A stretch of DNA of 64,000 bases from Hymenopus coronatus (taxonomy: Eukaryota > Arthropoda > Insecta > Mantodea > Hymenopodidae). Below the pieces are notes generated by a model. That model made no database searches. It was given only the letters and a program-made list of their open reading frames with translations, and had not been told where the DNA came from. Of the stretch, positions 8,122-26,286 are shown in pieces. How positions within the stretch are numbered: the stretch's first letter is position 1; every line of letters starts with the position of its first letter. The position numbers and the translations under genes were made by a program. The stretch spans positions 103,950,501 to 104,014,500 of the forward strand of contig CM060881.1 in the NCBI GenBank assembly GCA_030762935.1, given 5' to 3'.

Positions 8122-8127
8122 CACCTT
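8122..8127. repeat. Target-site duplication, left (CACCTT)
   Basis: CACCTT directly abuts the outer end of the left TIR and recurs immediately outside the right TIR at 26281-26286. Six base pairs is the length Polinton integrases produce. Confidence 0.95.
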
Positions 8128-8260
8128 AGTAGTATATGCCCCTCGGTAGGCAGACGCCGCCAACACGTCACTGGCGCCAACCAAGGGATTCCCCCGTCCT
8201 TGAAGGAATTCCCCCTGTCGCCAAATGACTTGTCTGGCGGAGATCTACCTTGCCGAGGGG
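8128..8260 (+). repeat. Polinton left terminal inverted repeat (133 bp)
   Basis: Matches the reverse complement of 26148-26280 at all 133 positions; homology stops at the next base on both sides. It is far more GC-rich than its surroundings. It has internal symmetry: CCCCTCGG (8139-8146) faces CCGAGGGG (8253-8260), and a near-central palindrome TCCTTGAAGGA lies at 8197-8207, so a single strand could fold back. Confidence 0.97.
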
Positions 8261-9558: not shown

Positions 9559-9567
9559 CTTTTTTCT

Positions 9568-9897
9568 TTAAGTTTTTTCTTTTTCTATTTGGTGGTGGTT
9601 TTTTTTTTTTTTAGTAAATACGTAGTCGTCGTCTTCAGTATATGTTAGGTAATAATTTCTTGATTTATTTAAAAAACTTACTTTCTCTTGACTCATATCT
9701 TCAAAATTGTTATTTAAAAATAAGTCTCTACCATCTATTTTAACAATTACCCTTCTTCCATACTTCGTGTTTACAATTCTTGCTTCTTCTATGAGATATG
9801 GTTGTCCCCTGGTAAGCTCGTCTGCAGTTAGTGGTTTAGTGGACTTCCCACGTTTGTTAAGGTCGGTGAGAAACCTCATTTCTTCCAAGGCGTCCAT
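9568..9897 (-). CDS. Small basic protein, possible OB-fold ssDNA-binding protein (109 aa)
   Basis: An intact 109-codon frame from an ATG at 9897. The central segment (about residues 28-60: PYLIEEARIVNTKYGRRV..VKIDGRDLFL) has the look of a five-stranded beta-barrel. It resembles small invertebrate mobile-element proteins with a 'Y-x-I-x-x-A-x-x-V-x-T-K-Y/F-G' signature that I take to be OB-fold-like. The C-terminus is a lysine/histidine tail (KKKKNHH). A ssDNA-binding role beside PolB would make sense for a protein-primed replicon that displaces a strand, but this is inference from sequence character. It sits between two genes that appear to be spliced. Confidence 0.6.
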   Translation of the reverse strand: MDALEEMRFLTDLNKRGKSTKPLTADELTRGQPYLIEEARIVNTKYGRRVIVKIDGRDLFLNNNFEDMSQEKVSFLNKSRNYYLTYTEDDDYVFTKKKKNHHQIEKEKT

Positions 9898-9935
9898 AGC
9901 TGATAACTGATGGTAGCTAGAAGATACTGTGCTTT

Positions 9936-10763
9936 TTATACATCAGAATCACGTTTTATACACGTGACCAGATGTTTATGAAGAAAGAAGCAGATTTCAT
10001 AATAGTTTCTAGGTGTGGCGCAAATCATGTATTCTGTGAAGCGTGAGTAAGACGTATTATTTATACCTTCTGACGATTCTGCTGCTGTGTCTTTTATATA
10101 GTTAATGTATGCCATTATAAGATTTGTTATTTCCTTGGATTCTTTAGTTTCATGATAAAATATATCGTTTACAATAGGGTAAAGTTTTGATAAATTCATC
10201 CATTCTTCTTCAATTAGTGATAGGGATATCTGTTTATCTCCTTGATACTGTTTTAAGATTATATTTTGGGTGCCAAATACATATTTTATATCCAAATGTA
10301 ATTCCTCTGTTAAATTACACTTCCATTTGAAATTTTCCTTTTTGGATCCAGTATCAATGCAATTAATACAATGAATCAAATTTTTCCAGTCGTTTAGGTT
10401 ATATAGCATTATACCACGATGTTCACCACATTTGGAAATAATTATGCGTAAATCGTAAGGATATTCCGGAGAAAATCCTACACATAAGATTTTCTTTTGT
10501 CCATGGTCTAAAAAATAAATGTTACTTCTTATACCAATAAGTGACGTGTCGTTGTTTTCGTTGTTTTCGTTGTTTTCGTTGTGATTTTTTGATACTGATT
10601 TGTTGTCTTCATTTTCAGCGGTTTTTTGTTTTTTAGCGTCTGTAGACCTATAAAAAATAAATGTGTTACATTCAGAACATTCATCTATATTTTAATGAGA
10701 ATTACGTTTTTATACATGGTATTTTTATTCTATTGTAATGTCTACTTACATCTTTTTCAGCAT
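9936..10763 (-). CDS. Polinton accessory protein, spliced, unknown function (about 241 aa)
   Basis: The open frame runs from 10691 down to 9936, but the first in-frame ATG in it is only at 10409, leaving about 95 codons of coding-like sequence without a start. Splicing resolves this. ATG at 10763 opens a 14-nt exon ending at 10750 before donor GTAAGT, and an acceptor after a pyrimidine tract (TTTATTTTTTATAG|GTC) at 10648-10649 joins it in frame. The intron is 102 nt and the predicted product 241 aa. The N-terminus is Lys-rich, then an Asn/Glu run (NENNENNENN) encoded by a GTTTTCGTT-type microsatellite at 10550-10580. The rest is globular, with CINC and a C-terminal HKHLVTC segment. I recognise no family. 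The gene begins 75 bp after the preceding stop. Confidence 0.6.
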
Positions 10764-10838
10764 GCAATCCGATGTCGGGCTTTTAAGAGACGTAACCTTT
10801 TTCTGTCATCAGCGCTTTTTATACTGAATACATACATT

Positions 10839-11444
10839 CTAAAACAGATCGTTAATATATACATTATAAATGGTGGATTCGAAGGTGATTGGTTCGTGGT
10901 TCAAATCGGAGGGAAGATGTGATTTATTTGGTTTTGGATCACACGGATATACGTTACGTCTATCAACTACATGTGAATACCACATAGCAAGATTTATAAC
11001 ATTTCTTTGAGAACAATTTAGAACGGGTATTTTATGGCAAGCATGCATACATGGATTAGCATTAAATGTAGCAAACGATTCGTGATATACATCGATTTCA
11101 TCAATGTTTATTATAGTACGTTCGGTAATAGCGCGAAGAAATTTAGCTTTTTCCTCTCCTTTTGTAAATACTACAGTAAATTTATCCACATGCTTTTTTA
11201 GAATTGATGGAAGTAAATCGTATTTTACGTCTCCGTCTTCCCATTTTAACCCGTGAATTTTAGCAGTAATTTTGTCATTGGTAGATTTTACCAATTCGTT
11301 CAACGTACGTCGTTCATAAGGAGGAAGAAACACCCACGTTTGAACCTCACGATTTGAACCACATATAGAAAGTTCTTTTACTATGTATTCACGTTCATTA
11401 TCAATTAAAAAATTAAAATATATGAATCCTGCTCCTGACGACAT
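10839..11444 (-). CDS. Invertebrate mobile-element protein with C-x3-H / C-x2-R-N-V motif (201 aa)
   Basis: Start chosen at the ATG at 11444 (MSSGAGFIYF), which directly follows a good acceptor (TGTCAATATAG). The in-frame ATG at 11489 would lie inside a predicted 50-nt intron whose donor, AG|GTAAGT, is at 11499. Features: a GLKWEDGD..Y segment (about residues 78-90), a VVFTKGEEKAKFL segment, and near the C-terminus a Cys/His cluster (CMHACHK..NCSQRNVINLAMW). The combination 'GLxWxxGxxxY ... KGxEKxxFL ... C-H ... C-x3-N-V-x-N-L-x-x-W' is one I associate with uncharacterised proteins in invertebrate mobile elements; no biochemical role is known to me. The Cys/His spacing suggests a small metal-binding module. 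It lies just downstream of the protease gene. Confidence 0.6.
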   Translation of the reverse strand: MSSGAGFIYFNFLIDNEREYIVKELSICGSNREVQTWVFLPPYERRTLNELVKSTNDKITAKIHGLKWEDGDVKYDLLPSILKKHVDKFTVVFTKGEEKAKFLRAITERTIINIDEIDVYHESFATFNANPCMHACHKIPVLNCSQRNVINLAMWYSHVVDRRNVYPCDPKPNKSHLPSDLNHEPITFESTIYNVYINDLF

Positions 11445-11509
11445 GATTCTATATTGACAAATAACAATAAAATGAATATCGAGATACATTTTACTTACCT
11501 TTTATTGGT

Positions 11510-12010
11510 TTACATATTTGATATGATCCTTTTTTTTTTCTTGCAGGAAGCGGTAGAAAAGCATACAATTTTACTAATTAGGTAGTCATTATATTTATAT
11601 TCTTTTATTTTAAATTTGGAAAAGAAATCCTTTCTTGATAAGTTACAACATCTATGAATAAGATAACCAATAACATAATGTCCACAAGTAGAGCTAAAGG
11701 AACTTTGTAATCGGCGTTTGTTATAAATCCAATTTCTTTTTCCGCATTGATATTGCAAAAAATTTAAAATGTTTGAATAAAGAGGAGCAAATCCAAAACT
11801 GTCAAAATATTCTCCTATACCCGATTTTGATATAAAAATTCCAACCCAATGCTGACCTGGCATATTGCTAGGATCTGTATTTATTACTAATGCAGTAGGA
11901 AATTGTAATATTTGATTTTTAGGTATTTGATCCCTTGCAAATACCCCTATAAAATACGGTTTAGTTTGAGGATTATTGGATAATAATTTATATATTTGTT
12001 GAGTATTCAT
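11510..12010 (-). CDS. Adenain-like cysteine protease (maturation protease, PRO, 166 aa)
   Basis: Polinton maturation protease of the adenovirus-endopeptidase/Ulp1-like family, which processes capsid and core precursors. The catalytic set is in order: His54 (GQHWVGIFI), Asp70 (EYFDSFGF), Gln102 as oxyanion residue, and Cys109 (SSTCGHYVIGYL). Length and spacing fit the family. The ATG overlaps the stop of the major capsid gene by one base (TAATG), suggesting coupled expression. The C-terminus runs through a 10-A tract encoding KKKK, so the exact end is sensitive to one-base errors. A likely substrate site is visible in the nearby 149-aa pVI-like protein (MFGS|G). Confidence 0.92.
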   Translation of the reverse strand: MNTQQIYKLLSNNPQTKPYFIGVFARDQIPKNQILQFPTALVINTDPSNMPGQHWVGIFISKSGIGEYFDSFGFAPLYSNILNFLQYQCGKRNWIYNKRRLQSSFSSTCGHYVIGYLIHRCCNLSRKDFFSKFKIKEYKYNDYLISKIVCFSTASCKKKKRIISNM

Positions 12011-13266
12011 TATGACACGTGTATAGATCTATTAATGTCTATTTCCAATAGCTTTTGATATTCTGAACACACTATCATAGTAATTGGTTCTAATAAAGCT
12101 TTTTTAAATCCTACGTTTACGGTAACATTGCCGAGCTGTAGTCCGGAAATATATGATTCGTTCGCGCTCATGTCTGCTGTTAAATCAAAAGCTAATATTG
12201 TATATCCACTTTCATAGCATAATCTAGAAATAGAATGTCCTCGATCATCGCAATGAATACCTAAGTCATCTTGTAAAGTTTGGAAGCATTGTAAATACTG
12301 TTCATTTGTAAAATCTGGAGTTAACGGTTGTAAAGGATTAGGTTGTCCGTTTACAAACAATTGAAAGAAATTCATATCAAAGTGTTGAAAGTTGTATGGG
12401 TTTAGCGAAAAATCGCCACTATATGCCTGATTTGTAACAAAAGCTATTATGACTCTGCGAGGTACTTTTCCCACAAAAATATCGTTTACAGTTTTACTCT
12501 GAGTTCCTTTAGGAATATTAAAAGGTTGTAGATCTACTCCTGTAAGGTGATATTTTGCATTGTTTTTACCTAGTGCTTCTTGATGAGCTAACAGCACAGT
12601 GGGAGATGGATATATACGTTTTAGAGATAATTTAGCAGATGTAAAAATAGTTTTTCCCGGTTTTTCCCCAATTAGGTGAAATTCAGGAGTTGAAGGAGTA
12701 AGTTTTACAGTTACAGAAACGTTATTGAGCAAATATTTGTCTTGATTACATATTTCAGTTGACAAACAACCCATTACTTCAAATTCTTTACTACCTTTTG
12801 TATGTGCATAGCGCCATTGTATAGCAGTATTTTGATCGAAATTATTCATTTTACCTGCTGTATCTTTTTTCCAAAGTGATGCTTCTAAATGTGTATTCAT
12901 GGCATCATTAGAATAGTTTAATAATTTTTCAAAATATGTTTTATAAGGATAGCCTGGTTGAGGTTGAGTCACTGTAACATTATTTAAGATAATTTCCACT
13001 TGTTGAAAAAGAGAATTTAAGGAATTATTAACAAGTGTCACTTTGTCAACAGCATCTAAGTTTTGACCAGTTTCATTTACTATTTTACAACGTAGGCGTA
13101 ACACAACGTATGAAAGATCTAAATAGGTATCAGCATTTCCTGTATAGTGAAAAATTAAAGGCGAATTATGAGATATAGCATTTTGAGGGTCGAGTTCAAT
13201 AATGTTATAATTTTCAATACCGGTTTGTATTGGTTGTTCATCAAAAATATTAAATGCCGAATGCAT
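12010..13266 (-). CDS. Polinton major capsid protein, double jelly-roll type (418 aa)
   Basis: Intact frame starting at ATG 13266. It matches the Polinton capsid family represented in many invertebrate genomes by proteins annotated like C. elegans F54H12.2, shown by structure prediction to be double-jelly-roll hexon-type major capsid proteins. Visible features are beta-strand-rich sequence throughout; the N-terminal block GIENYNIIELDPQNAIS..., NADTYLDLSYVVLRLRCKI (residues about 44-62); a central YPYKTYFEKLLNYS..KDTAGKMN segment; and a second jelly-roll half from about residue 240 (LQPFNIPKG..., PRRVIIAFVTNQAYSG). At 418 aa it is at the short end for the family. It lies between the pVI-like gene and the protease, the expected morphogenesis order. 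Confidence 0.88.
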   Translation of the reverse strand: MHSAFNIFDEQPIQTGIENYNIIELDPQNAISHNSPLIFHYTGNADTYLDLSYVVLRLRCKIVNETGQNLDAVDKVTLVNNSLNSLFQQVEIILNNVTVTQPQPGYPYKTYFEKLLNYSNDAMNTHLEASLWKKDTAGKMNNFDQNTAIQWRYAHTKGSKEFEVMGCLSTEICNQDKYLLNNVSVTVKLTPSTPEFHLIGEKPGKTIFTSAKLSLKRIYPSPTVLLAHQEALGKNNAKYHLTGVDLQPFNIPKGTQSKTVNDIFVGKVPRRVIIAFVTNQAYSGDFSLNPYNFQHFDMNFFQLFVNGQPNPLQPLTPDFTNEQYLQCFQTLQDDLGIHCDDRGHSISRLCYESGYTILAFDLTADMSANESYISGLQLGNVTVNVGFKKALLEPITMIVCSEYQKLLEIDINRSIHVS

Positions 13267-13275
13267 ATATATATA

Positions 13276-13725
13276 TTAGACATTATGTATTTTACGAAAA
13301 TATATCTTTCTTCTTTTTTCTTTTTCTGTTCTTTTTACGTTGAGAAGTAACTTTCGAATGAGTCTGTTTTCTTTTTTTCGGGGTTTTATTCCAGAACCAA
13401 ACATCGAATCTAAAGACTGATCGGCTTTTTTCTTTAAGTTGCCTGTTCCTTCTTTTAATCTAGTGTTAAGTGATTGTTTGAATTGTTTTCCAGACGTTGC
13501 TACATCTGTTAGAACGTTAGCTCCTACATTTAATGCCTCTTTACCAACGGCTTTTGCCGCACTTTTAAAAAGTGGAGATACAAATCTCCATAGTCCTCCA
13601 AGTGCACCAAAAAGTCCATGTCCTCTTTGAAAACGCTTTCCTTTGTATAATACAAAATTTGGATCTTCCCCACTTCCTTTTCCACTTTGATTTAAAAAAT
13701 ATTTAGCAAGTTCGTGATGATTCAT
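13276..13725 (-). CDS. Adenovirus pVI-like amphipathic virion protein candidate (149 aa)
   Basis: Small basic protein. Residues 35-75 form a Gly/Ala-rich amphipathic stretch (GLFGALGGLWRFVSPLF then KSAAKAVGKEALNVGANVL), the character of membrane-active internal capsid proteins such as adenovirus protein VI. Residues 108-112 (MFGSG) match the adenain consensus (M/I/L)-X-G-X|G, separating this part from a very basic C-terminal tail (RKKENRLIRK...KRTEKEKRRK). That suggests a precursor cut by the protease encoded two genes away. Its ATG overlaps the minor capsid stop by 4 bp (ATGA), and the major capsid gene follows after 9 bp. The role is inferred from composition, the site and position; no sequence homology can be proved by eye. 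Confidence 0.65.
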   Translation of the reverse strand: MNHHELAKYFLNQSGKGSGEDPNFVLYKGKRFQRGHGLFGALGGLWRFVSPLFKSAAKAVGKEALNVGANVLTDVATSGKQFKQSLNTRLKEGTGNLKKKADQSLDSMFGSGIKPRKKENRLIRKLLLNVKRTEKEKRRKIYFRKIHNV

Positions 13726-14657
13726 TTTTTTTTAGGTCTAAAGGAAAGTACAACGGCTGAAGAAAACCCGTCGACAAATGGCAAAAACGCCCCTGTACCC
13801 GTTCTTAAATCTATTTTTATAATGTTAAAATCGTGTTGAAGTAAAGGTACCCAATTTTGAGGAAAAAATGCTTTTTCAATTGCTAAATGTTTGTTATCGA
13901 TATTTAGTTCTACTGTTGTACTTTCGATAATTTGTGCAAATGTATCGCTAACCATTTGAGGATCAATTAGGTTACAATAAACAAACATTTCGTAAGGAAA
14001 AGTTAAATAAGGGTTCATTGGATACGATGCCCGTGAAGACTTTGCAACATTGATACCAAATTTAAAACCTAATTGTCTATTTAAATCGGGTGATAAATAT
14101 AAGTTACGAATGAAATGTTTATTTGCACTCGTTTTTACTTCATCCGATTGTACTGTTGTCGTTTTAGGTTTTGAAGTTGAAGCATCTTGTTCAGTATCTC
14201 GTTTTTTTGGTTTAGTATCTCCTTGTTTGGGTTTACTAGGCTTTGCAGAAGCTTCACTATTTTCTACTGCATCGGAATTAATACTGACAAAACCTGTATT
14301 TGAATTGTATTTAAAAAATGTTTTAACAAATGCATTTCTCTCTAATGTGCGATTAATTTCATTTAGTAGCATTACATTGTCAGTTATTGTAGATTCCCCC
14401 AGATCGTAACGAAAACTAAACGAATTAGTGCCGGTTTCTGTTACGTGAACTCGATCTCCTTTTAAAAAATTTCCACTTTTTGTGATATTTACAAACATTC
14501 CGGGATATCTTATTTTGGTTAATGCTACTTCCCATTCTCCTAGCAAAACTATTCGTTGGGGCAACATGTTACAAAAACTAGAAGTTGTGTTACTTTTAAA
14601 GTGATCCATAGAACCGTTACTAGTAAGCGTAACGGAAAAGGGTTCTCTTTTCATCAT
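13722..14657 (-). CDS. Polinton minor capsid (penton, single jelly-roll) protein (311 aa)
   Basis: Start taken at the first of two adjacent ATGs (14657, MMKREPFSVTL); an upstream in-frame TTG at 14687 is not a credible eukaryotic start. The N-terminus has the family signature of Polinton minor capsid proteins: F-x-V-x-L-x-S-N-x-S, then LPQRIVLLGEWEVALTKIRYP (about residues 34-54). Residues about 140-185 are a hydrophilic Lys/Ser/Thr/Pro-rich linker (AKPSKPKQGDTKPKKRDTEQ), unusual against the ordered flanks and probably a surface loop or hinge. The C-terminal half (LSPDLNRQLGFKF..., FVYCNLIDPQMVSD) is conserved-looking and ends VVLSFRPKKK. The ATG overlaps the integrase stop by 4 bp (ATGA). 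Confidence 0.85.
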   Translation of the reverse strand: MMKREPFSVTLTSNGSMDHFKSNTTSSFCNMLPQRIVLLGEWEVALTKIRYPGMFVNITKSGNFLKGDRVHVTETGTNSFSFRYDLGESTITDNVMLLNEINRTLERNAFVKTFFKYNSNTGFVSINSDAVENSEASAKPSKPKQGDTKPKKRDTEQDASTSKPKTTTVQSDEVKTSANKHFIRNLYLSPDLNRQLGFKFGINVAKSSRASYPMNPYLTFPYEMFVYCNLIDPQMVSDTFAQIIESTTVELNIDNKHLAIEKAFFPQNWVPLLQHDFNIIKIDLRTGTGAFLPFVDGFSSAVVLSFRPKKK

Positions 14658-15740
14658 TGTGATATTAAATTTGATTGTTTTATCCAAGAATTAAACTTTG
14701 CAGGATATCCTTTCCACTTCACTAACACTTCTTTACTGCTTCCTTTACCTCTTTCGTCTAAAATTTTATCTATTTTAAAGATCGATTGAGGTTGTACTTT
14801 TTGGATCTCTTCTGTGTAGAAAATTCCGTCTAAATCTTCTCCAGATAAATCTTCTAGTTTATACACAATAGGAATGCCATTTACTACTTCTCTAATTTTA
14901 AAAATTTCATCAGTCCAATTTTGTTCATATCCTTTATCAAATTTCATTTTTATTTTAGAGATGCGAACGTGATCGCCTACTTTATATTTTTGTGGTTTAT
15001 AAGCTTTATATTTGCGTAATTTTTTTTCGTACAAATTGTCATAAACTAGAGAAATATTGCTTTCGTTTACTTCGGTAGGTGCCATTTTTATAGATCTATG
15101 ATATGCGTTATTGTACGATGTTAATAACCTGGGTAATATGTCAGTATATTTATAAGTATTTTTGTATGTAAAATATTTCCACATTTTTTCCTTAAGTGTT
15201 CTGTTAAATCGTTCTACAACACTTGCTTTTACATTATTTTTTGTAAGATAATGAGTAATTTTATGATTTTTTAAAAAATGTTTGAAACTGCTTGTTAGTA
15301 AATTCAGTACCTTTATCAGTTTGTAAAATTTTGGGAATACGCTTATATTTGTTAAATATTTCATTGAAAGCTTTAACTATTTCTGTTCCAGATTTGGAGA
15401 TTAGAGGAACGGCCCATGCGTATTTAGAGAAAACATCAATTATAGTTAAAATATACAGATATGGTTTATTGTAATCTTTAATATTATTTAATACGTTTAA
15501 GTCGCTTTCCCATAAATCGTCAATGTTTGTCACGTGATAATGTTTTGTTGGATAACGTTTTCTAGCATATTTATGAAAAGTGTAACTGTCTTGACCTTGT
15601 AAATATTTAATAATTTTTTGTTTAGAAATACCAGTAGCCTTGTGAAGTTTATTAGCAGTACCAAGTCCTGCATAATGATCCAATTTAAAATAATATTTAT
15701 CAAGTATTTTTATCTCCTTTTGTGTTAAAGTATCTCCCAT
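14654..15740 (-). CDS. Polinton DDE integrase with C-terminal chromodomain, frameshifted
   Basis: Retrovirus-type integrase that inserts the element and makes the 6-bp duplication. The first part starts at ATG 15740 and holds the N-terminal region and two catalytic aspartates (WESDLN and LQTDKGTEF). The second part (to 14654) holds the catalytic glutamate (VERFNRTLKEKM), the C-terminal DNA-binding region (KYKVGDHVRI) and a chromodomain (KIDKILDERG...VLVKWKGYP..NSWI). The parts are in different frames and meet near 15272-15277, a T6A6 tract; one extra base there explains the break. Apart from this the gene looks intact at about 360 residues. It overlaps the preceding 145-aa gene by 16 bp. Confidence 0.92.
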
Positions 15741-16162
15741 TTTTGCCTATCAGAACGCAAGTTATAAGGTTTATATCTTATGCTAGACGTCGGTTCTGTT
15801 TTTATTTTTCTTTCTATCGATTTTTTTTTATTTTTGTTTTTACTGCGGTATTTTTTAACTTTCGCTTTAGGCTTTTCTGTTTCCAAGTCGCTTTCAAATA
15901 CAGCGTCTTCATTATCTTGTTCTCCCTGTTTCCATAATTCCTTTTCCGATTGGATGTAAGGTTCACGCAATTTTGATACAATATCGTGATAATTTATTAA
16001 TTTATATTTAAGAAGTTTCCATTTATTATCAGGTGACACTGACTGTTTTTGTATACCTTCTATATCTCTGGTTAAATTCTCTAAAGTTTTATCGATGATA
16101 TTAATTTTTTTTAAACTTTCAGGTTGCGGATGCAACAGCATAATTTGTCTACCATACTTCAT
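15725..16162 (-). CDS. Small charged Polinton protein upstream of integrase, unknown function (145 aa)
   Basis: Intact frame from ATG 16162. The N-terminal two-thirds is predicted alpha-helical (MLLHPQPESLKKINIIDKTL..., WKLLKYKLINYHDIVSKL). The C-terminal third is acidic then strongly basic (KAKVKKYRSKNKNKKKSIER), consistent with nucleic-acid binding or a nuclear-localisation signal. A small helical protein at this position, with a helix pair around 'D-x-K-x-x-L-x-x-x-x-x-x-Y', is common in animal Polintons, but I know no assigned role. Its stop lies inside the integrase start region (16-bp overlap) and it starts 4 bp after the 127-aa gene ends. A virion core or scaffold role is conjecture. 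Confidence 0.7.
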   Translation of the reverse strand: MKYGRQIMLLHPQPESLKKINIIDKTLENLTRDIEGIQKQSVSPDNKWKLLKYKLINYHDIVSKLREPYIQSEKELWKQGEQDNEDAVFESDLETEKPKAKVKKYRSKNKNKKKSIERKIKTEPTSSIRYKPYNLRSDRQKWEIL

Positions 16163-16166
16163 TGTT

Positions 16167-16550
16167 TTAAGTAAATTTAGACACTAGAGCACTTCCTAAT
16201 GCACTTAATACAGGCAATATAAACGATGGCAGAAAACCTCCTTTTTGTATTAAAATATTCTTCTTCTTTTTAAAAGAAGTTTTTTTATCTATTAATTTTC
16301 TCCACAATTTTTTATGCTTTTTTAACCGATTTTTACATTTATTAGAAATTAATACTTTTCCGTTACATACGTTTAGTGCACATTCGGAAATAGCTTTTAC
16401 TAGTTCTGGATTTGCTTCTCTTAAAATTTTTTTACGTAATTTCGGCTTTGCTTTACTAAGAACAGCGAGATTGCCGCACTGCCTTGCAACTGTGGGCGAA
16501 AATAGTCTGCAGACTTTTTTAAAAACCTTTGGACGTAAACTAGGTGTCAT
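16167..16550 (-). CDS. Small basic core-like protein with C-terminal GGFLP hydrophobic tail (127 aa)
   Basis: Intact 127-aa frame with very basic helices (PKLRKKILREANPELVKAIS, KNRLKKHKKLWRKLIDKK) followed by a Gly-Gly-hydrophobic tail (GGFLPSFILPVLSALGSALV). This two-part design recurs in animal Polinton/adintovirus elements and resembles adenoviral core peptides (pX/mu or pVII-like) in composition: a DNA-condensing body with a membrane-active or capsid-anchoring tail. The segment LVKAISECALNVCNGKV is the most family-like part. It lies between the ATPase (11 bp away) and the 145-aa gene (4 bp), the usual place for virion core genes. Function is inferred. Confidence 0.75.
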   Translation of the reverse strand: MTPSLRPKVFKKVCRLFSPTVARQCGNLAVLSKAKPKLRKKILREANPELVKAISECALNVCNGKVLISNKCKNRLKKHKKLWRKLIDKKTSFKKKKNILIQKGGFLPSFILPVLSALGSALVSKFT

Positions 16551-16561
16551 TTTTTTCTATA

Positions 16562-18156
16562 TCATTTAGAAACAAAAGAAGTTAATATTTCGTCTGGTAA
16601 TATTCCTGTTCTGTAACGATATTTATCGGGAGTATATTGCGTACAGTCTAATATTAAATATCCGTGTGGCTTTTCTGTAGCCTTTTCAAATGCTTCTAAT
16701 AAAAATTTTGATCTTCTCGGTTCAAGCTGCTGAAATAATCTATCTAATTGCAGTTTATCTCTATTGTTTTTAAACACTATAATGTAGTTGGAATTAAGAG
16801 ACATAGTTCTAAATTTTTTTCCCTGTGGAAAAATATTTTGTAATATATAAATTACTCCAAAATTTTTATGGTGTGAATCTTTGGTAAAAAAGTTTGATAC
16901 GTTGCTACCGTCTGCTTCGTACATTAAATCATCTAATATTAATAAATCTCCATTCCTAACTGATTCTAATTCGGGGACTCCTTCGTGCATACGCTCATTA
17001 AATGTACAATTATTAAATTCCCTTTCGGTAGCAAAAGACGGTGGATATTCAGGAGGATGACACCATAAGCATCTTTTTATAGGTTGACTAAATACTTTAT
17101 CTGCATTTTTAAGTAAATTTTTAACAAAAGTAGATTTTCCGCTACGCGATGGACCTGTAACTTGCATTGTACTAGGAAATTTAAACTTTGTAATATCTGA
17201 ATCCACTATTTCAGAACGTTCAAAAGGTATTTCATTTTCTGTTTCTTTATATGACATGTCTCTCATTTCTATATCTTTACCAGAATTAACTTTTTTAAAT
17301 TTTTTATAATTTTCATCTATAATTTCTTCTTGAGATAAGTCTTTCATTTCTATATTCTTACCAGGATTAACTTTTTTGTAACTTCTTTTAAAATTTTCAT
17401 CTACAACTTCTCCTTGAGATAAGTCTTTCATTTGTATATCCTTACCAGGATTAACCTTTCTATATACATTTTTAAAATTTTCGTCCAGCACTTCTCCTTG
17501 ATTAAAATCTTTCATTTTTATATCCTTACCAGGATTAACTTTCTTAAATCTTTTATTCTGAAATGTATTTTTTAATTTGATTTTACTGTTATTTACATTA
17601 TCAAATCTGTGTCTCTTTAAGTTTCTAAACATGTTATTTTCATTTAAATTCGAATCCAAATCTGAATCTAGTTTGTGCTTTAAGTTTCCTTTATTTTTAT
17701 GGTTTAAAAGTAAACTTTGTTCTAAAGTTGGATTAAAGAGTGCATTAGCGCTTGTTTTTAATTTTTTCATATTTAATAAATTTTCATTTATATCGGATTC
17801 GAAAAACTTTTTTTTAAAGGGTAAAGTATGTTCTCTATCCTTAGTTCGCTTTATAGCTTGATTTAATATCGGTAATTTGGCAACTTTATTAAAAAAAGAA
17901 TGCTGTGAACTTATGTTTCGTTTAGTTGGCTGACCTGAAGGTAATAATTTAGGAATTTTTTTAAAAAACGAAAAAGAATGAGGTGAACTTATGCTTCGTT
18001 TAGTTGGCTGGCCTAAGCTGATAATTTAGGAATTTTTTTAAAAAACGAAACTTCTTGATCAGATTGACGTTTCAAAGGTAAACGCAAAGGTTGTAGTTTC
18101 GATAATTCGTTTACATCATATTTCATGGAAACATCGTCGTCCGAGTCTGATAACAT
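16562..18156 (-). CDS. FtsK/HerA-type genome-packaging ATPase with long repetitive N-terminus, frameshifted
   Basis: The ATPase domain is read intact from ATG 17770 (402 aa): Walker A GPSRSGKST at residues 206-214, Walker B DLLILDDL at 275-282, and a later sensor-like region (ILQNIFPQGK). This is the A32-like packaging ATPase found in Polintons. Two observations extend the gene. Residues 76-175 consist of four tandem copies (period 27-28 aa; about 84 bp, 17245-17545) built on K-K-V-N-P-G-K-x-I-x-M-K-D. The same frame also stays open upstream to 18026 with another repeat (FFKKIPKL...GQPTKR-ISS, 77-78 bp period). A one-base deletion between about 18011 and 18021 then separates it from a credible start at ATG 18156 (MLSDSDDDVS), 41 bp after the PolB stop. 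The N-terminal extension is unusual for this ATPase family. Confidence 0.9.
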
Positions 18157-18197
18157 GTTTTATACTACTAATGCTATTTTAGGTTTCCTCATTCCAT

Positions 18198-21100
18198 TTA
18201 ACGACATAATTTTTTTTGAAAACCATAAGGTACAGTATCAAAATTTGAAACTCTTTTTCTTTTATTAACTACCAAACGAAAAGTTTTAATGGACGGTTCT
18301 GTAACTAACGTCCATAATGATTTTCGTGATATTTGTGTATTACGTAACGTAATTGTCATGGTGTTGTTATTTAAAACAATATCACTCATTACACATTCAT
18401 TTATTTTTGTTAAATTTCCAGAATTTAAAGTAATACCTTTAATTTTACATACTATTTTTGTATTTTTTCCATATTTTATTCTAAAGGCATAGCTTTTAGG
18501 TCCACTAGAAACAAATTTATCTATATATGCATCCTCACCATATTTCTCTAATTCATTTGTCATACAACCAAGAAAGGATCCTGTAGGAGGCATCCAATCT
18601 CCTGATTTGCACACTGCTATAATTGAATCTGTATCAAAATAAAATACACGCTCGTTTAATTTTTTGAGATAAGAATATAGTTCAAGACGAGCATGTGCTG
18701 TAGTATATGCAGCAATAACAACATTTGTGGTACGATTTAATTTTGGACTTTCCTTAACATGACTCCAAACAACATAAATAATGTCATCTGTTGCTGGAAG
18801 ATATGTATGAACCCCTACGCTTGGATTGTTTAAAAGTTCAGTAAGACGGGAATATTCTGTTACCAGCTCTGTTGTTGGTAAATTATCTTTCTGCCCATAT
18901 TTTCCCCAAAACGAGTTCAGCATTAATTTACTTAATTCACGTCTACCAGGATTTAAATTTATTGCATCCGAATCTAATTTAATTCCTTCTTTTTTTTCAA
19001 AACTTTTAATATACTCATTTTTTTTCTCTTCATTATTACAATCTGAAGGCCATCCTGAAGCTTCTGTTTTTATTTTTAAAAACTGATTTACATATTTTTC
19101 AAATAGTCCCTGTTCTTTCTTTTCAAAATTATATTGTACCATTTGATATTCCCAAATTTCATAAATTTGTAAAATTCTATAGCCTTCATCGATAGCAATT
19201 TTAATTTCGTCCAATACCCACGTGCCGCTTAAGCTTCTCTCTTCATCAGTATGATTGCACACAGTTTGATTTTCTAGTTGTGCACAAGTAAAACATAAAG
19301 AAAATATTAATTTACCATTTACTCTTAAGGGCAACACTGGGTGATAGAGGTCAGTAGGTGGCAAAATTTTACATTTTTTAAGCCCTCCTTTAATAAGATT
19401 TAAATCTGGAAACTCATCTTTTTCGCAATAAATTGTTGGATGGCCTACAGGATACGGTTTAGTTTTGTTTACAAAAGGATATAGACTACATACGTCGTAG
19501 TAAAATATCTTTTCATTTCCTTGTATTTCATGATATAATTTAACACAGTTTGTTCGTCCGCCATAAAATGCGTCTCTTGGTTCAAGAGGTTCTGGAAGAG
19601 TAGGAGAAAAATTGTTTACAAATTGCTTAAGATCTTTATCGATTTCTATCATACTTTTAAATGTACATTCCCACATCTCCACAACATTATAAGGAGCACT
19701 TTTTATTTTATTTGTAATTCTTTCAGTTGATTCATATCTAGAATTCATGGTTTCATAGTACGAGCCGTAAATATAAGAGGACCTATCTTTAAAGCATTTT
19801 AAACAGCCATGATAAAAACATCCATGAAAAAGTAAAACTGTTTTATCACTTTCTCTATATCCATCTACTTTATGATTTAAAATTATCACTTCCCTACCAT
19901 TTAATGCATGTTGAATAGGAATACCTTCTTTTTTCTCTAACCAACAAAGCCAAATTAGTGCTATACGCGATTGTTTGTCTGCTAAACGATATCCTCCTAA
20001 TGGAAGCACAGAAATTGTATCCATAGGCATAAAGCGTTTTCTATATACATTCATACAAGCATTAGCAATTGTTAAACACTCTCTAAAAGGATCGATATCG
20101 TTTTCATCCATAAATTTTTTTCTAAATTTAGAAGCACCAAAGCATAACAACTGTACATCCATTCGACAATAGTTTACAAGCTCCTTTTGCATATCAAATT
20201 GATATCCAGATTGTTGTTTATCAGTATACCACTTTTCAAACTGTTTTCGTTCATCTACAGACATCGCCTCAGGGGAATAGTATTTTTGATCAGGTATATT
20301 TCCAACATAGTTCTGATTTTCTTTTGTATTAAATAAATATGGAAAATATCCTTTTGTTTCATGCAATTGAAATGTTTTTGAAAATCTTGCCAATGATATC
20401 GGTAAAAAATTTAATGAATCTATAAAAGTTATATTTTTATATTTTATTCTATATATTCTTGTACCGTTCATGATTAATTCAGGAGACCAACCCAATGTAC
20501 CAACCATATACTTTAACAAAATATGGCCATCGTAAGATTTTAAATTGTGTGCTATAATAGTTACATCTTTAAGCACTGTACGTGGTAGTGTGATATATTC
20601 TAAAAGTTCACGTACCGGATCTTCCTTAAATATCCATTCCTTTACACCACAGTTGTGACAAATTTCCATTTTTGTATAAGTATTAATACATTCATTACAA
20701 ACTTGATAAAGAATACATAAATTCGGTTCGTGTTCGAACTTGTCATTTTGTGAATTAAATGTTTTTTCCTGAGTACATTCAAAGTCAATAAAGCATATTA
20801 TAAAGTTTTTACTTAGTTGCTTGTTTGTATAAGGTTGGACATAGCAAAGATGATTTAATGTTACATGTTTCTTACATATGTAACAAAAAGTTTCACCACA
20901 CACGTGTGGTATTTTTCTCTTTCTTAAATTATATAATTTACAGCAGATATTACAAACTTTTTCTGAGTCACAAACAGATATATCTTTTGGATAAAAGACA
21001 CCCTTTTTTAAATGATTTTCATAACAAAGTTGACCTTTGAAATCACGGTTACAGTTTTGACAGTTTACATATTCATTAAATGTAGTATTACATTGAAGAT

Positions 21101-21877
21101 GACACTTTGAACAAATAAAATCACAACGGTGCTTCTCCTTTTTATATTTAAATGGTAAATTACACTGTCTACAATAATATTTACATTTAAATGCTTTATG
21201 TATATTTACAATAACATTAAAGTGGTTATTATGATATAATAAATGTATATGTTTATCACTGTTTGTTGCAGATTTATACAGAACGTTTTTACCACTGTGG
21301 TCCCCAAAAACTGTAAAGTAATATTTGTCTTGTAACTGCTTTTCAAAGGAAACTACATCATCCAATGTAAACCCCGTATTCTTATTTACTAGTGAACACA
21401 AATTTATTGCTTGTTTTGTTTGATCATTTTGGCACCTTTTAATAGAAACATACTTTTTATCATTATCAACTTTAGCAATTGCCACAGCAATTGATCTAGG
21501 AAGGCACATGAAATCATCATTTTCTATAATTATAATACCCTTATTTTGCCTACAAATTTGACAAGAAGTAAAACAATTTCCTGGATGTATTTCCGTATGA
21601 ACACACGTAAATTTTAGTGGTCCATCCAAAAAAAATTATGATTACTTTGAATAACTCTTTCTAAAGCATTTAATATAGCTTCCATGTTTATTTGGTCAAA
21701 TTTTCTAACACTCACGTTAAAACTTTTAGGTGGTTCTTGTGAATTAGTTACAGACATGCCAAAGTAACTGGGTTTATAATGTAATAATTCCCGATTAGCA
21801 AATTCTAAAAATTCCTCAAATATTAAATGTATCCATACCATTGGATCAATTTCATCATCCTCATCACTAACATTCAT
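18198..21877 (-). CDS. Protein-primed family B DNA polymerase (PolB), frameshifted near N-terminus
   Basis: Replicative polymerase of the element. In the 1143-residue main frame (numbered from the TTG codon at 21629): Exo I DFE at 282-284, Exo II NLKSYD at 362-367, Exo III YCRMDV at 487-492, Pol A YDVCSLYP at 711-718, Pol B KLMLNSFWGKYG at 901-912, Pol C DTDS at 999-1002, followed by a KSY. A Cys/His-rich zinc-binding region spans about 150-262, and a Vsr-endonuclease-like insert (FHGCFYHGCLKC) lies at 601-612. The main frame lacks an ATG; a stop lies just upstream. A second frame (ATG 21877 to 21614, 87 aa, ending QSNHNFFWMDH) is the missing N-terminus. The two meet in a T8 run (21628-21635) where one T has been lost. 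That N-terminal frame is open without an ATG back to about 21968, so a further upstream start or exon is possible. Confidence 0.95.
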
Positions 21878-21967
21878 AGGATCTACTAATATTTCAGTTT
21901 GTGTATATCCTGAATAATATTTAGTTAATGTTCTTTTTTTATGACTTAAAATTAAAAAAATGTTCCA

Positions 21968-22301
21968 TTATACTCACGTAATCAGGAAAATTGTATGCTC
22001 TTCTATTATTTTCCTACACTAAAATGAACACCGCGGCGTTTATTTATACCAGTCCACAAAGCTCACACTTTTCTAATTTGTTATATAAGCGTACACCTGT
22101 TTACGTTTTCCTTGATACTTTGACTTTTCACGACATACAATTTTTGTATCAATATTTCGGTGCAAACTTAGTACAAGCATATGCGTTGTATCATAGTTCC
22201 CTTCACATATTTGATTTTCACAATAATTACATTTATTACGCCGTTTTATAACAATTTTTCCATGCAAAAACTTAGTACGTTTGTATTCCTTTGTTATGTT
22301 A
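21968..22301. promoter_or_regulatory. Intergenic region upstream of PolB and the dUTPase gene
   Basis: About 330 bp without a credible gene between the open PolB N-terminal frame and the tandem repeats. On the plus strand it contains a TATA-like TTATATAAGC at about 22080, the same decamer repeated downstream. Likely part of the promoter region from which PolB (minus) and the dUTPase gene (plus) diverge. Confidence 0.4.
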
Positions 22302-22850
22302 AAACATTGCTTAGCAATTTGCCCAATGTTTCAAGCTGCATCAGCAAGTTCGCAGTATTTTTCGCATTGCAATTTTGTCCTTGCAAAGCTGCATGAACAA
22401 GGCTATAGTGCCCCAAGGCTGCACAAGCTGCAGCAAGTTACGTAAAATGACCTTGTCCTTGCAGTGCTGTATTTTCCACGATGCAACAACAAATTATATA
22501 AGCGACCTTGTCCTTCAGCAAGTTTTCGATGTTTCCTATACAATAACAAGTTATATAAGCAAGCTTGTCCTTGCAGAACATTGCTTCGTAATTTCCCCAA
22601 TCTTTCAAGCTGCATCAGCATCGCAAAGCTGCATGAGCAAGGTCGCAGTGCCCCAGGCTGCATGAGCGGCAGCAAGTTACGTAAATGACCTTGTCCTTGC
22701 AATGCTGTATTTTCCACGATGCAACAACAAATTATATAAGCGGCCTTGTCCTTTCAACAAGTTCTCGTGATTCCTAATACAATAACAAGTTATATAAACA
22801 ACCTTGTCTTTGCAGCACACACCTTATACCGTCCTATTCTTGGTATTTTG
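22302..22850 (+). repeat. Two tandem units of about 275 bp with recurring TATA-like/CCTTGTCCTT modules
   Basis: A unit beginning AACATTGCTTAGCAATTTGC at 22302 recurs, about 90% alike, at 22577 (AACATTGCTTCGTAATTTCC). Within units the module TTATATAAGC-(G/A/C)-CCTTGTCCTT occurs repeatedly (around 22496, 22551, 22733, and a variant near 22792), together with CAAGCTGCATCAGCA and GCAGCAAGTTACGTAAA elements. The open frames here come from the repetition and are not genes. Position, immediately upstream of the dUTPase gene and behind PolB, suggests a promoter array or replication/packaging control region. Confidence 0.75.
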
Positions 22851-22937
22851 CATCCGTCTTTCTAGCCTTAGGTGTTCTTAATCACGTGTAATACCCGATA
22901 TAAAATCCAAGCTACCGATATATACTTTCGACACACA

Positions 22938-23778
22938 ATGGCTCACCATCACCAAGAAAATACAGAGAGTGTGCGAGAAGACGAAGTCTACTCTCAAGAC
23001 TTACCAAACGTCTTGATAGACGAAGCCTTCAATAAAATTTTTAAAAAACATTTTGGAGAAGAAGAAACTACGTCTACACAACAAAAAGAAGACGAAGTCT
23101 ACTCTCAGGACATACCAAACGCCTTGATAGACAAAGCCTTGATAGACAAAGCCTTCAATAAAATTTTTAAAAAACATTTTGGAGAAGAAGAAACAACGTC
23201 TACGCAGCAAAAAAAAAAAAAAAGAAAAAGAAGAAGATTTCAATAAAACTTTGGGAGAAGAAGAATCAACCTCTACACAACAACATTTGGGAGAAGAGGA
23301 AGAGGTCCAAGTCATCGAGGAGGTGCCTAACGATAAGAAAGAAGACACTATCAAATTATACTACAGTTTACACGATCTGGCTGCTTTACCTCCAATCAGA
23401 AGGTATGATTCAGCAGGTTATGACTTATTTAATACTAAATCTAAAGAAATATACCCCTGGAGCAATTTAATTATTGATACAAAAGTTTCAGTAAAACTTC
23501 CTAAAAATACTTACGGTTTAATAGCCGCAAGATCAAGTGCAGCAGTAAGAAACTTGTTAGTTCTTGGTGGAGTTATAGACAGAGATTACACAGGTACAAT
23601 TCATGTGATTTTATTTAATTTATCGGATCAAATTATTACAATAAAAAAACACAAAGCCATAGCACAACTAATTATTCACAAAATTGTGACACCTCCAACA
23701 AAAAAGATTAAACTCATTCATACAGAAAAAACTGGTAGAGGAGATAAAAAATTTGGTTCCACCCTTTCAGCAATCTAA
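22938..23778 (+). CDS. dUTPase with repetitive acidic N-terminal extension, frameshifted
   Basis: Trimeric-type dUTP diphosphatase (dUTP to dUMP and pyrophosphate), which would keep uracil out of the element's DNA. All five motifs are present (numbering within the downstream frame): I DSAGYDLF 77-84, II ARSS 117-120, III GGVIDRDYTGTI 130-141, IV KHKAIAQLI 157-165, V GRGDKKFGST 186-195. The start is ATG 22938 (MAHHHQENTESV). The N-terminal part holds two copies of a unit of about 37 residues (EDEVYSQD.PNVLID...FNKIFKKHFGEEETTSTQQ) and a truncated third. The two frames meet in an A15 run (23209-23223) where a length change shifts frame. Divergent from PolB and one of only two plus-strand genes. 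The catalytic domain looks intact; the extension is not a standard part of the family. Confidence 0.9.
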
Positions 23779-23791
23779 ATTTAAGGGAAAA

Positions 23792-24438
23792 ATGAATTTG
23801 GAACAACTATGTGTTAACACGATAGTTAAAAACAAAATACCTTTGGGAGTCTATGAAAACATCAGTTCTGATGTGCTTGATTATATGTTTAAGGATTTCG
23901 CGGATTTATCTTACTTCAGTGAGTATAGTTACCCTTTTTTAAAAAAGCTAAAAAAAAAAACATACCCAATAAATCCATCACTGAAATAAATTACCCTTAT
24001 GAGGTAATCCACACATGGAAGCATAAATTCAATTGGAAAATTATTTGCAGACACATAACGTTAAAAAGCAACTTTATTAAAGAGTTTCAAGACTATCTCG
24101 ATTGGTTCTGGATATGTATAAATCAAAATTTAACTGAAAGTGTGTTAGAAGAATGTGCAGAACATTTGCATTGGACCTGGGTGTGTAGATTTCAGAGGTT
24201 AACAGAGAGGTTTATGAGAAATCATCAAAGTAAGTTAAAATGGAGTTATATTTCATGTTTCCAAAATGTATCTGAAGATTTTGTAAAAGAATTTAAAGAT
24301 AAACTGGATTGGACTAAACTAATGATGTATAGTAATTTGAGCACACTTTTCATTTGTGAGACCTTCGACATTAAAGGATGTCAAGAATCTATAAATCAAT
24401 TTAAATTGTATGCTAATGCTAGAAGATTATTACCGTGA
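23792..24438 (+). CDS. Protein of 23-residue W..I repeats, frameshifted
   Basis: ATG 23792 (MNLEQLCVNTIVKN) opens a frame ending at 23989. An adjacent frame running to 24438 continues the same kind of sequence, and the switch falls in an A11 run at 23950-23960. The second part is at least four tandem 23-residue units, each starting with Trp after an amphipathic helix, e.g. WSYISCFQNVSEDFVKEF and WTWVCRFQRLTERFMRNH. The pattern W-x-x-I-x-x-x-Q-x-L-x-E-x-F reminds me of repeat proteins in large eukaryotic DNA viruses, but I cannot prove homology. The N-terminal 50 residues could be a small F-box-like helical module. The gene starts 13 bp after the dUTPase stop on the same strand. Function unknown; a protein-interaction role is likely for such repeats. 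Confidence 0.65.
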
Positions 24439-24688
24439 ACTTAAGATAAAATATCATTTGTATAGCAATGTAAGACATACAGTTTTTGTGAAAATATTAC
24501 TTTTTTAAATCAAAAGGTAAATAATTTGTTCGAAATAAACACAAAATATAACTTAACTTTTGTTTTTTTTTCTGTTATGTCTAAAGAAAATCCATATTCC
24601 TCCTTCTATTTCCTCTTTCTTTATATCTCCTTTGCATTAGTTTTTTATGTAAAATATGCACAAAACTTACCTTTTGTTGTTGTTATTT
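24439..24688. other. Convergent intergenic spacer, AT-rich
   Basis: 250 bp between the plus-strand repeat-protein gene and the minus-strand secreted coiled-coil gene, whose 3' ends converge here. No gene seen; expected to hold both polyadenylation regions. Confidence 0.4.
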
Positions 24689-25972
24689 TTAATTTGTGTT
24701 GTATGCAAACTCCTCGTCTTCTTCCTCATCTTCTAATCTTTCCTCTTCACTTCTCCTTCCTCCAATTTCCCCAATTTCCTGTTCTTCTTCTCCTTCTAAT
24801 TCTTCAAGATCATAATTTACAAAAATATCAGGTTCCTCTTCGTCATTTTTTACACCCGTACACCCATCCGTTTTAGTTAAGGTTAATATCAAAGCTTTTA
24901 ATTCTTGAAACTGATTATATACATGATTTACACTTCTTTTAATGTTGTCAACCAAATCTTTATGCTTAGATAAATTATAATTTCGAAGTTCTAATTCGCT
25001 CTTTAAATTTGCTATCGTAGCTCCGGCATTTTTCATATCCTCTTTAACTCTATTGTTTTCTTCGGTTAATGATTTAATTTTTCGATTCAGATTTTTTGTT
25101 TTTTCATTAAAATCTTTTACAAGTTTCTGTTTAACCTTAGCAACGGATGTCTTACATTTTTCAAATGCAGCTCTCCTTAAACTTTCTACAGAAATACGAC
25201 CTCCAGATTCAGTAGTTCCCGATCCACATTCTGATCTAATGTTAAACGATCCTTCCGCAGCCCACCTAGATGCAGATCTTTTTACCCTTCCCGTTATGAT
25301 ACTTTTATTTCCTATACTTAATTTCCATTCACCATCTCCGCACTTTCCAAAAACATATATGTAGTTATCTGTAAAATAAGTATTCATTTCGTCGATCATG
25401 CTGTATACAGTAATTAACTCTGTTTCTTTCGATGTCAGCTTCCAATCAAGTCCTATACCCTCTGGAAAATCAAATAAATCAACCAACTCTCTACAGTCTG
25501 CCATCTCAACCAATATCAACTTATTATCGTTTGTAATCATATTCACAGAAGTACCACGAAAGTTACATCCCAATTGATTTTCATGCGTAGTCATATTTTT
25601 AACGCACTCACAAAGCCCATTTATCGTATGCTCTGTTTCGCACTCTGCTTGACCAACCGGTATATTATTATAATACATTAAACCACACCTACTTCCTGCT
25701 TGACATTTTGTTATCGGTTTTAGACATGTATATACATTTTGAATGCTTCTTATATCCATAGATCTAGCATTAAATTTACATTCACTATCTTTTTTATATA
25801 CACACGAACAGTTTGACAACAATTCATAATCCTTACGACACATGGTGGCATTTTGCAAATGTCCCGTGTCTCCGTCCACATTAAATCCGCATCTTCCAAA
25901 ACTCACGCAACTCTCTCCTCCTTCCTCCCTAGCCCTTGCAAGTGCTACAATCATCAATATAAATACGTACAT
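24689..25972 (-). CDS. Secreted Cys-rich, furin-cleavable coiled-coil protein (427 aa), candidate surface glycoprotein
   Basis: No family recognised. In order: a signal peptide (MYVFILMIVALARA, 1-14); a Cys-rich ectodomain (about 14 Cys between 22 and 160, plus 211 and 249); five N-glycosylation sequons (N41, N54, N126, N222, N333); a furin site RVKR at 229-232; a long coiled coil (about 265-365, heptad-like LNRKIKSLTEENNRVKEDM); a late Cys371; and a highly acidic tail (375-427). No transmembrane segment is evident after the signal peptide, so the product is secreted or held by partners. Signal, sequons, furin site and coiled coil together have the layout of a viral attachment or fusion protein, or a trimeric fibre; a secreted factor acting on the host is the alternative. 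It is the first gene inside the right TIR and is intact. Confidence 0.8.
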   Translation of the reverse strand: MYVFILMIVALARAREEGGESCVSFGRCGFNVDGDTGHLQNATMCRKDYELLSNCSCVYKKDSECKFNARSMDIRSIQNVYTCLKPITKCQAGSRCGLMYYNNIPVGQAECETEHTINGLCECVKNMTTHENQLGCNFRGTSVNMITNDNKLILVEMADCRELVDLFDFPEGIGLDWKLTSKETELITVYSMIDEMNTYFTDNYIYVFGKCGDGEWKLSIGNKSIITGRVKRSASRWAAEGSFNIRSECGSGTTESGGRISVESLRRAAFEKCKTSVAKVKQKLVKDFNEKTKNLNRKIKSLTEENNRVKEDMKNAGATIANLKSELELRNYNLSKHKDLVDNIKRSVNHVYNQFQELKALILTLTKTDGCTGVKNDEEEPDIFVNYDLEELEGEEEQEIGEIGGRRSEEERLEDEEEDEEFAYNTN

Positions 25973-26147
25973 TTTTTAAAAAACGTCTCCTTCTAACACG
26001 CTTAATACAATACTATTAATATACATGTCGCAGTGTTCTTAAATACCATTTTATTACGCAATATGTGTATTAATTTGCTTACGTCATAAAAATATAAAAT
26101 CAATGTTTCTATAAAATTTTTAAAACGCTTACCATAAATAAAATCGC
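25973..26147 (-). promoter_or_regulatory. Promoter/leader region between right TIR and secreted-protein gene
   Basis: 175 bp, AT-rich, no gene. On the minus strand a consensus donor (ATG|GTAAGC, about 26126-26134) lies 14 bp inside the TIR and a second GTAAGC about 50 bp further on; an acceptor-like TTTTATAG follows the first. This could be a short spliced leader, though the nearest donor-acceptor pair is too close together to be a real intron. Confidence 0.3.
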
Positions 26148-26280
26148 CCCCTCGGCAAGGTAGATCTCCGCCAGACAAGTCATTTGGCGACAGGGGGAAT
26201 TCCTTCAAGGACGGGGGAATCCCTTGGTTGGCGCCAGTGACGTGTTGGCGGCGTCTGCCTACCGAGGGGCATATACTACT
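26148..26280 (-). repeat. Polinton right terminal inverted repeat (133 bp)
   Basis: Exact reverse complement of 8128-8260, with the outer end at 26280. It lies about 175 bp upstream of the start of the secreted coiled-coil protein gene, so any promoter activity of the TIR would drive that gene. Confidence 0.97.
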
Positions 26281-26286
26281 CACCTT
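26281..26286. repeat. Target-site duplication, right (CACCTT)
   Basis: Right copy of the 6-bp duplication, identical to 8122-8127 and in the same orientation. Confidence 0.95.

Follow-up and report, generated by a model that had tools for sequence, protein, structure and literature searches.

A Polinton/Maverick element in the genome of the mantis Hymenopus coronatus carries a gene for a 427-aa cysteine-rich coiled-coil protein, here called gp. Judging from the contexts of its copies, a group of Polintons carries it as a resident gene, near one end of the element in five related clades within this host. We give an even chance to the reading that gp is a secreted, probably furin-cut and disulfide-linked coiled-coil oligomer that acts outside the infected cell as an effector or ligand. 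An initial annotation of this DNA had proposed a Polinton gene for an exported-looking, cysteine-rich coiled-coil protein bearing a furin site, and that description is supported here; all 17 of the open frames chosen for comparison, drawn from five clades, keep 17 cysteine columns and a furin-type R-x-K-R site.

The Polinton element

The stretch of DNA that was analysed (the window) comprises 64,000 nucleotides of contig CM060881.1. It contains a complete Polinton/Maverick of clade A, with a length of 18,153 bp (8128..26280), delimited by its terminal inverted repeats (TIRs) and target duplications. The TIRs are 133 nt each and are 100% complementary as inverted ends. The left TIR (8128..8260, plus strand) begins with AGTAGTATATGCCCC, and the right TIR is located at 26148..26280 on the minus strand. 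The 6-bp target-site duplication CACCTT lies immediately outside both of them, on the left at 8122..8127 and on the right at 26281..26286. In addition to these ends the element has the gene complement of a Polinton/Maverick, comprising DNA polymerase B (PolB), a retrovirus-like integrase, a packaging ATPase and capsid genes.

PolB is encoded at 18198..21629 on the minus strand (PF03175, 1.1e-54). The packaging-type P-loop ATPase (16562..17770, minus strand) was named by eye, has weak AAA matches that fall below the Pfam cut-offs, and has a relative of 64% identity in clade B. The N-terminal part of its frame contains four tandem repeats of 84 nt (28 codons) at 17210–17542. The integrase with its chromodomain (14654..15740, minus strand; PF00665 8.8e-13, PF00385 7e-9) is split in the window copy, such that the rve part and the chromodomain part lie in two overlapping frames; a clade-B2 relative (L061, 7619–8677) is a single open frame of 352 aa. 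The major capsid protein (12010..13266, minus strand), also named by eye and having 23 relatives, was used as the marker of the element. The smaller genes are also located on the minus strand, and the dUTPase that is the clade-A neighbour of the gp gene (23179..23778, PF00692 4.3e-31) is on the plus strand.

Several further features were observed. A gene at 16167–16550 on the minus strand encodes 127 aa with five cysteine residues and a hydrophobic C-terminal stretch (1.83), and has relatives in other Polinton clades; its product may be a membrane protein of the element, or one that acts on membranes. Between the dUTPase and gp genes there is an open stretch with W-rich repeats (23793–24430, plus strand), lying in two frames and apparently broken. 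A block of repeats with units ∼238–240 bp apart is found inside the element at 22303–22819, and the flank of the element contains the remnant of a mariner-like transposase, recognized by eye (45658–46041, minus strand).

Copies and clades in the host genome

The host genome (3.13 Gb in 384 contigs) was searched with both the gp gene as DNA and the gp protein. The DNA search gave 43 matches, from which 38 places were examined. The protein search gave at least 100 rows (98 of 972 candidates scored, two pairs of rows being pieces of one copy each), and 84 of the 100 matches listed were free of stop codons. Five gp clades co-exist in this one genome, with some 100 or more copies that are mostly open. 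The initial annotation had held that capture of an ordinary host secreted protein by the window copy alone would count against its reading; the number of stop-free matches and their spread over five clades contradict such an isolated capture.

Counting full-length loci, clade A has 12 including the window, with a frame of 426–427 aa that is open in 11. Clade B has 14 loci, with an open frame of 408–409 aa in nine and a broken frame in the other five. Broken copies are also found at ten older A-like loci (L009–L014 and L040–L043) and at two clade-C loci (L020 and L024). We compared 17 frames in detail, a non-random set made up of the window, L016, L017 and 14 loci from the protein search that were picked for diversity and for an open frame; the C-terminus is altered or cut in four of them (L049, L051, L054 and L055). 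The frames fall into five groups, A (the window), B, B2 (L052), C (L045 and L047–L051) and D (L044), with identities of 41–75% between clades. B2 is closest to B (71–75%). Clade C is 54–59% identical to B and B2 and 42–44% to A, and clade D is 41–47% identical to the other groups.

Location of the gene and linkage to the capsid gene

The 12 clade-A and 14 clade-B loci have matching element ends, and the flanking 6-mers differ at all 26. An element end that begins with AGTAGT is present 5′ of gp in all five groups (one locus examined for B2, two for C and one for D). The distance from this end to the gp gene is 308 bp in A, 440 bp in B, 800 bp in B2, 999 and 1097 bp in C and 1059 bp in D. At the loci examined in the five clades, the interval holds no ATG-initiated frame of more than 97 aa. 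The suggestion that other Polintons of the host might keep the gene at a like place is therefore borne out in five clades.

A search of the host genome with the capsid protein gave at least 100 rows (100 of 1176 candidates scored), 93 of the 100 listed being without a stop codon; by this measure open Polinton copies are abundant in the genome. A gp gene was found for 72 of the 100 listed capsid rows, on the same strand and in the expected direction, at a median distance of 12,501 bp (range 10,255–18,402). Conversely, a capsid row was found for 68 of the 100 listed gp rows. These pairings were drawn from the matches listed on both sides, so that an unpaired row does not represent an absence. 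Four of the 28 unpaired capsid rows were inspected, and gp was present in three. The 2.6 kb fetched for the fourth is a rearranged clade-A copy, in which the dUTPase is followed by a gene from the opposite end of the element. This locus (L066, G000:C16:140451400-140454000) lies near three identical clade-A capsid rows; gp is missing from the 2.6 kb, apparently by rearrangement.

Two other frames were observed in related elements. In clade B, a plus-strand Ser/Pro-rich frame of 408–430 aa (L021, 5675–6967; L022, 6674–7900, with PPSPQP-like repeats in L022) lies on the far side of PolB, where clade A has the dUTPase. In clade C, there is a Cys/His-rich frame of 139 aa that appears zinc-finger-like by eye (L024, 4924–5343; L023, 709–1128, minus strand).

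Architecture of the gp protein

The gp gene occupies 24689..25972 on the minus strand, as defined by its open frame and its conservation. No other gene lies between it and the right TIR, whose inner edge is 175 bp from the start of the gene. Its 427-aa frame compares with a longest frame of 182 aa and a mean of 61 aa in 500 shuffles of the region. The codon-usage score is 0.262 per codon, compared with −0.034 and 0.069 for the other frames of the same strand, and the codon usage resembles that of the other genes of the element. The protein has 18 cysteine residues, sequons at residues 41, 54, 126, 222 and 333, and a single R-x-[KR]-R site. On recounting, the initial annotation was accurate for the intact frame close to the right TIR, the signal-like start, the 18 cysteines, the five sequons, RVKR at 229–232 and the acidic tail. 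Directly past the gp stop there is a donor-like AAAGGTAAGT, which we take to be due to chance.

Starting at the N-terminus (all parts of the protein being encoded on the minus strand), residues 1–14 (25931..25972) resemble a signal peptide, with a candidate cleavage site of A-x-A type following A12-R13-A14. The assignment is based upon hydropathy, recognition of the cleavage site by eye and preservation in relatives. The hydrophobic start is found in all five clades, and merely 5 of 18 aligned residues are common to gp and its database relative P0001 (see below).

The chain continues as a seven-cysteine module (residues 22–83, 25724..25909) with the spacing C-x5-C-x16-C-x9-C-x-C-x7-C-x17-C, all of whose cysteine columns are present in 17 of the 17 frames. 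The second module (residues 90–160, 25493..25705) has its cysteines in the same order, with the spacing C-x5-C-x14-C-x9-C-x-C-x12-C-x23-C. Profiles of the two modules match beyond the cysteines (E 0.0011), at a level reached by 2 of 200 shuffles in which the cysteine columns were fixed. Between single sequences, again with the cysteines fixed, there is a weak likeness, with scores reached by 89 and 31 of 1000 shuffles. Two of the sequons, N41 and N54, are present in all five clades as putative sites of N-glycosylation; the first is lost in L050, one of 11 aligned rows.

Following the modules is a middle region (residues 161–228, 25289..25492) that includes C211 and a conserved C-G-x-G-E-W sequence. 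It belongs to a stretch, residues 161–260, for which dN/dS is 0.05–0.13 in six pairs of sequences with an overall dS >0.2; two pairs of more similar sequences gave 0.50 and 0.63. The middle region leads into the furin-type site RVKR (residues 229–232, 25277..25288), identified as a motif. R-x-K-R is conserved in all 17 of the chosen open frames, together with 17 cysteine columns. The x within it varies between V, I, A and N, and this is the free position of the furin consensus. The exact RVKR sequence is missing from one clade-A copy, L038.

Leaving out the signal-like start, there are 15 cysteine residues before the predicted cut in the seven host sequences counted and in P0001. When the start is included the number is 15 in the window, L016, L017, L052, L044 and P0001, and 16 in L045 and L047, where one lies inside the signal-like start. 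Since the number is odd, at least one cysteine of the head should pair with the part that follows the cut or with another chain.

The coiled coil extends over residues 285–368 (24869..25120), as defined by its heptad register and by a helix in the AlphaFold model that runs from residue 262 to 368; this is in keeping with the ∼100-residue coil proposed at the outset. The heptad periodicity of residues 262–372 was matched by 4 of 5000 shuffles. It is present in all five clades, where 0–1 of 3000 shuffles reached the values of the window, L017, L052, L045 and L047, and 4 of 3000 that of L044. Coils with β-branched residues at a positions and leucine at d positions favour dimers; the gp coil has this character, and its sequence rather suggests a dimer than the trimer considered in the initial annotation. 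Cys 371 (24860..24862), directly past the coil, is kept in 16 of the 17 frames. The protein terminates with an acidic tail (residues 372–427, 24692..24859), in which 25 of the 56 residues are D or E and the pI is 4.05.

As the initial annotation had noted, no transmembrane segment is found in the window protein, where no 19-residue window past residue 20 has a Kyte–Doolittle value above 0.86. Such a segment is also lacking in six sequences covering all five clades, for which the top hydropathy window past residue 30 has a value of 1.15.

Selection and inheritance

dN/dS was calculated by the Nei–Gojobori method for nine pairs of gp sequences. Three pairs within clade C gave 0.15, 0.15 and 0.17 (dS 0.24–0.26), and the three B–B2 pairs gave 0.20, 0.20 and 0.22 (dS 0.71–0.74). 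Within clade B, values of 0.37 and 0.40 were obtained for L017–L055 and L046–L055 (dS about 0.1), and the L047–L048 pair gave 1.43 at a dS of 0.009. In the A–B comparison dS is saturated. For B–B2 the corresponding ratios are 0.12 for PolB and 0.07 for the ATPase, against 0.21 for gp. Among eight clade-B copies the variable codons comprise 4 silent and 6 amino-acid-changing (P 0.13), and in six clade-A copies the gene is distinguished from that of the window by 0–1 silent and 1–2 changing codons. From these sequences gp is under purifying selection between clades; the youngest copies alone give no sign of selection.

The pairwise identities of gp and PolB were compared between clades. They are respectively 73 and 78% for B–B2, 57 and 56–69% for B–C (long PolB pieces), 45 and 58% for A–B, 43 and 49–64% for A–C, 47 and 48–69% for A–D, and 41 and 41–71% for B–D. 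The pairwise identities of gp roughly track those of PolB, as expected if gene and element had been passed on together from a time earlier than the divergence of the clades.

Relatives and structural predictions

No relative of known function was found for gp in Pfam, PDB, NCBIfam, PHROGs, IMG/VR or a set of 5.8 billion proteins, and there was a single true relative, P0001. Using the whole of gp and residues 1–267 as queries, the 5.8 billion proteins yielded P0001 alone, from a word-filtered search that gp relatives of low identity in other Polintons would escape. As a control, the capsid protein found 23 relatives, and related Polintons of other hosts, including thrips, are present in that database. 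Scans of IMG/VR gave no relative, whether the query was the gp protein, either of two gp alignments, the capsid protein, the capsid alignment or PolB. Neither P0002 nor P0001 matched a Pfam family at E up to 10, and a profile of the head matched no chain in the PDB.

P0001 is an unnamed protein of 359 aa with the source label 'lgn', encoded on a contig of 1,325 bp. Over ∼290 residues it is 52–53% identical to the window gp and 71–72% to clade B, with all 17 cysteines of the aligned part, all three tryptophans and RVKR kept. It differs past residue ∼293, where it fails to align with gp and has no recognisable coil.

The best hits to gp in libraries of protein families and structures fall in the coil, and a profile of the coil gave weak matches to GCN4 (E 0.013), keratin (0.02), a 'Fiber protein' (0.35) and reovirus sigma-1 (0.48). 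Weak matches elsewhere to phrog_22132 (0.024, residues 185–227), NF046116 (0.093) and 2w7y (0.18) were taken as chance, as were those of the cysteine modules to cystatin D (1rn7, 0.18) and an antifungal protein (0.88).

The AlphaFold model of full-length gp (2 rows) is confident for the long helix of residues 262–368 only (pLDDT 68–78 over residues 291–360). The model of the head (4 rows) has no confident part. The head is of no use in either model (mean pLDDT 42 and 33). A PDB fold search with the full-length model, in which the head is poor, returned nothing below E 0.27 and was set aside. We found no anchorless head-and-rod protein with a furin-type site kept across Polinton clades in our searches of the open-licence literature.

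Discussion

The combination of a signal-like start, sequons, invariant cysteines and R-x-K-R suggests that the gp product is placed in the secretory pathway. With no anchor and an acidic tail it is likely to be soluble, and the lack of an anchor makes a soluble ligand or decoy most likely, rather than an envelope protein. On the reading we prefer, gp would enter the pathway through the signal-like start, and its double-module head would be the binding part. Cleavage by furin at R-x-K-R would free or re-orient the head. From the odd number of cysteines the head is predicted to stay tied to the coil part after cleavage, held by a disulfide on a rod-like stalk. The coil would make an oligomeric rod that supplies avidity, and the whole might serve as a soluble ligand or decoy aimed at host defence or at a target on the cell surface.

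The main rival, which we regard as possible but on balance unlikely, is that gp is a particle attachment protein, binding released particles or an acquired membrane and tethering them to the next cell like a fibre. The regular linkage to the capsid gene and the selection suggest a core function, and gp could equally be a part of the particle. The build of a head plus a coiled coil is also that of an attachment protein, and the coil has its weak matches to 'Fiber protein' and sigma-1, although GCN4 and keratin score better. The product of 16167–16550, with its hydrophobic C-terminus, is a possible membrane partner. Yet gp is itself anchorless, and the topology is awkward. Capsids of the Polinton kind assemble in the nucleus or cytosol, whereas a signal peptide would take gp across the membrane and away from them. 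A preprint mentions candidate envelope glycoproteins for adintoviruses (PMC11071296), and also describes coiled coils in that group among the 'Cah' class, for which reovirus sigma-1 is the typical match. If gp were such an intracellular capsid-surface protein its hydrophobic start would be incidental. We think this very improbable, because the invariant cysteines, recurring sequons, drifting x in R-x-K-R and persistent hydrophobic start all point to the secretory pathway.

Animal secreted proteins typically have features that are seen in gp, namely tandem cysteine modules, sequons and a pro-protein site. The gene might have been captured from the host by an ancestral Polinton and retained as an effector mimicking the protein it came from. 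Such an origin would be compatible with the function that we favour, but seems improbable. No host-type relative was found in Pfam, NCBIfam, PDB or the word-filtered search of 5.8 billion proteins. Moreover, the 26 loci of clades A and B have an element end, and L009–L013 have the dUTPase and a TIR-like end nearby; the search for a host source covers the gp matches listed (at least 100 rows), among which a remote host gene could be hidden. Least probable of all, with only a slight chance, is a membrane fusogen, either class I-like or akin to that of nematode Mavericks, with its anchor on a missed exon. The initial annotation had likened the build of gp to that of an attachment or fusion glycoprotein, and indeed a signal-like start, a cysteine-rich part and a furin-type site followed by a heptad coil are all present; nematode Mavericks encode a putative fusogen, according to a meeting report (PMC10680173). 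The comparison fails for the transmembrane anchor, which none of six sequences spanning the five clades encodes within the frame, and for the fusion peptide, since the 20 residues past the site have average hydropathies of −0.22 to −1.08 in six sequences (−0.52 in the window). Nor does the idea of a skipped transmembrane exon hold up, the best 19-mer on the minus strand downstream having a value of 2.07, compared with 2.23 for the best 19-mer averaged over 100 shuffles.

It is a long-standing question whether the Polintons of animals, which carry capsid genes, move between cells and hosts in the form of particles. For intranuclear jumping alone, there is little obvious use for a protein that has secretory features, is under purifying selection at a fixed place in several clades and changes in step with PolB. 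The likely action of gp outside the infected cell would make an otherwise unseen extracellular stage of Polintons testable, either with antibodies against the protein or by removal of this one gene. It is also an orphan protein architecture to be solved. More tentatively than for the secreted effector or ligand, we suggest that gp may represent a previously unrecognised core family of animal Polintons, an anchorless head-and-rod glycoprotein, matured by furin and tethered by disulfides, that would act as an extracellular arm to bind the next cell or disarm the host. If true, this would show directly that leaving cells is part of how these 'transposons' live.

Comparison with known systems can be made at the level of published descriptions. 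The fusogen of nematode Mavericks is reported to be similar to herpesvirus gB. As described in the meeting report, it likewise places a surface-type protein in a Polinton/Maverick besides the capsid genes, but gp has neither a membrane anchor nor a hydrophobic stretch following the cut (PMC10680173, PMC11071296). The candidate envelope glycoproteins of adintoviruses, such as Adinto14876, belong to the same broad group of elements in which a glycoprotein is suspected, and gp differs in being anchorless (PMC11071296). With the 'Cah' class, as outlined in the same preprint, gp shares a coiled coil and a Polinton-like element, and differs by its secretory features (PMC11071296). The cysteine-motif proteins of polydnaviruses are similarly cysteine-rich and come from insect DNA viruses; they have six conserved cysteines and a length of 129 aa in one case, at least one has a signal peptide, and they act on the host (PMC5012692). 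Compared with that description, gp has two seven-cysteine modules, a furin-type site and a coiled coil (PMC5012692).
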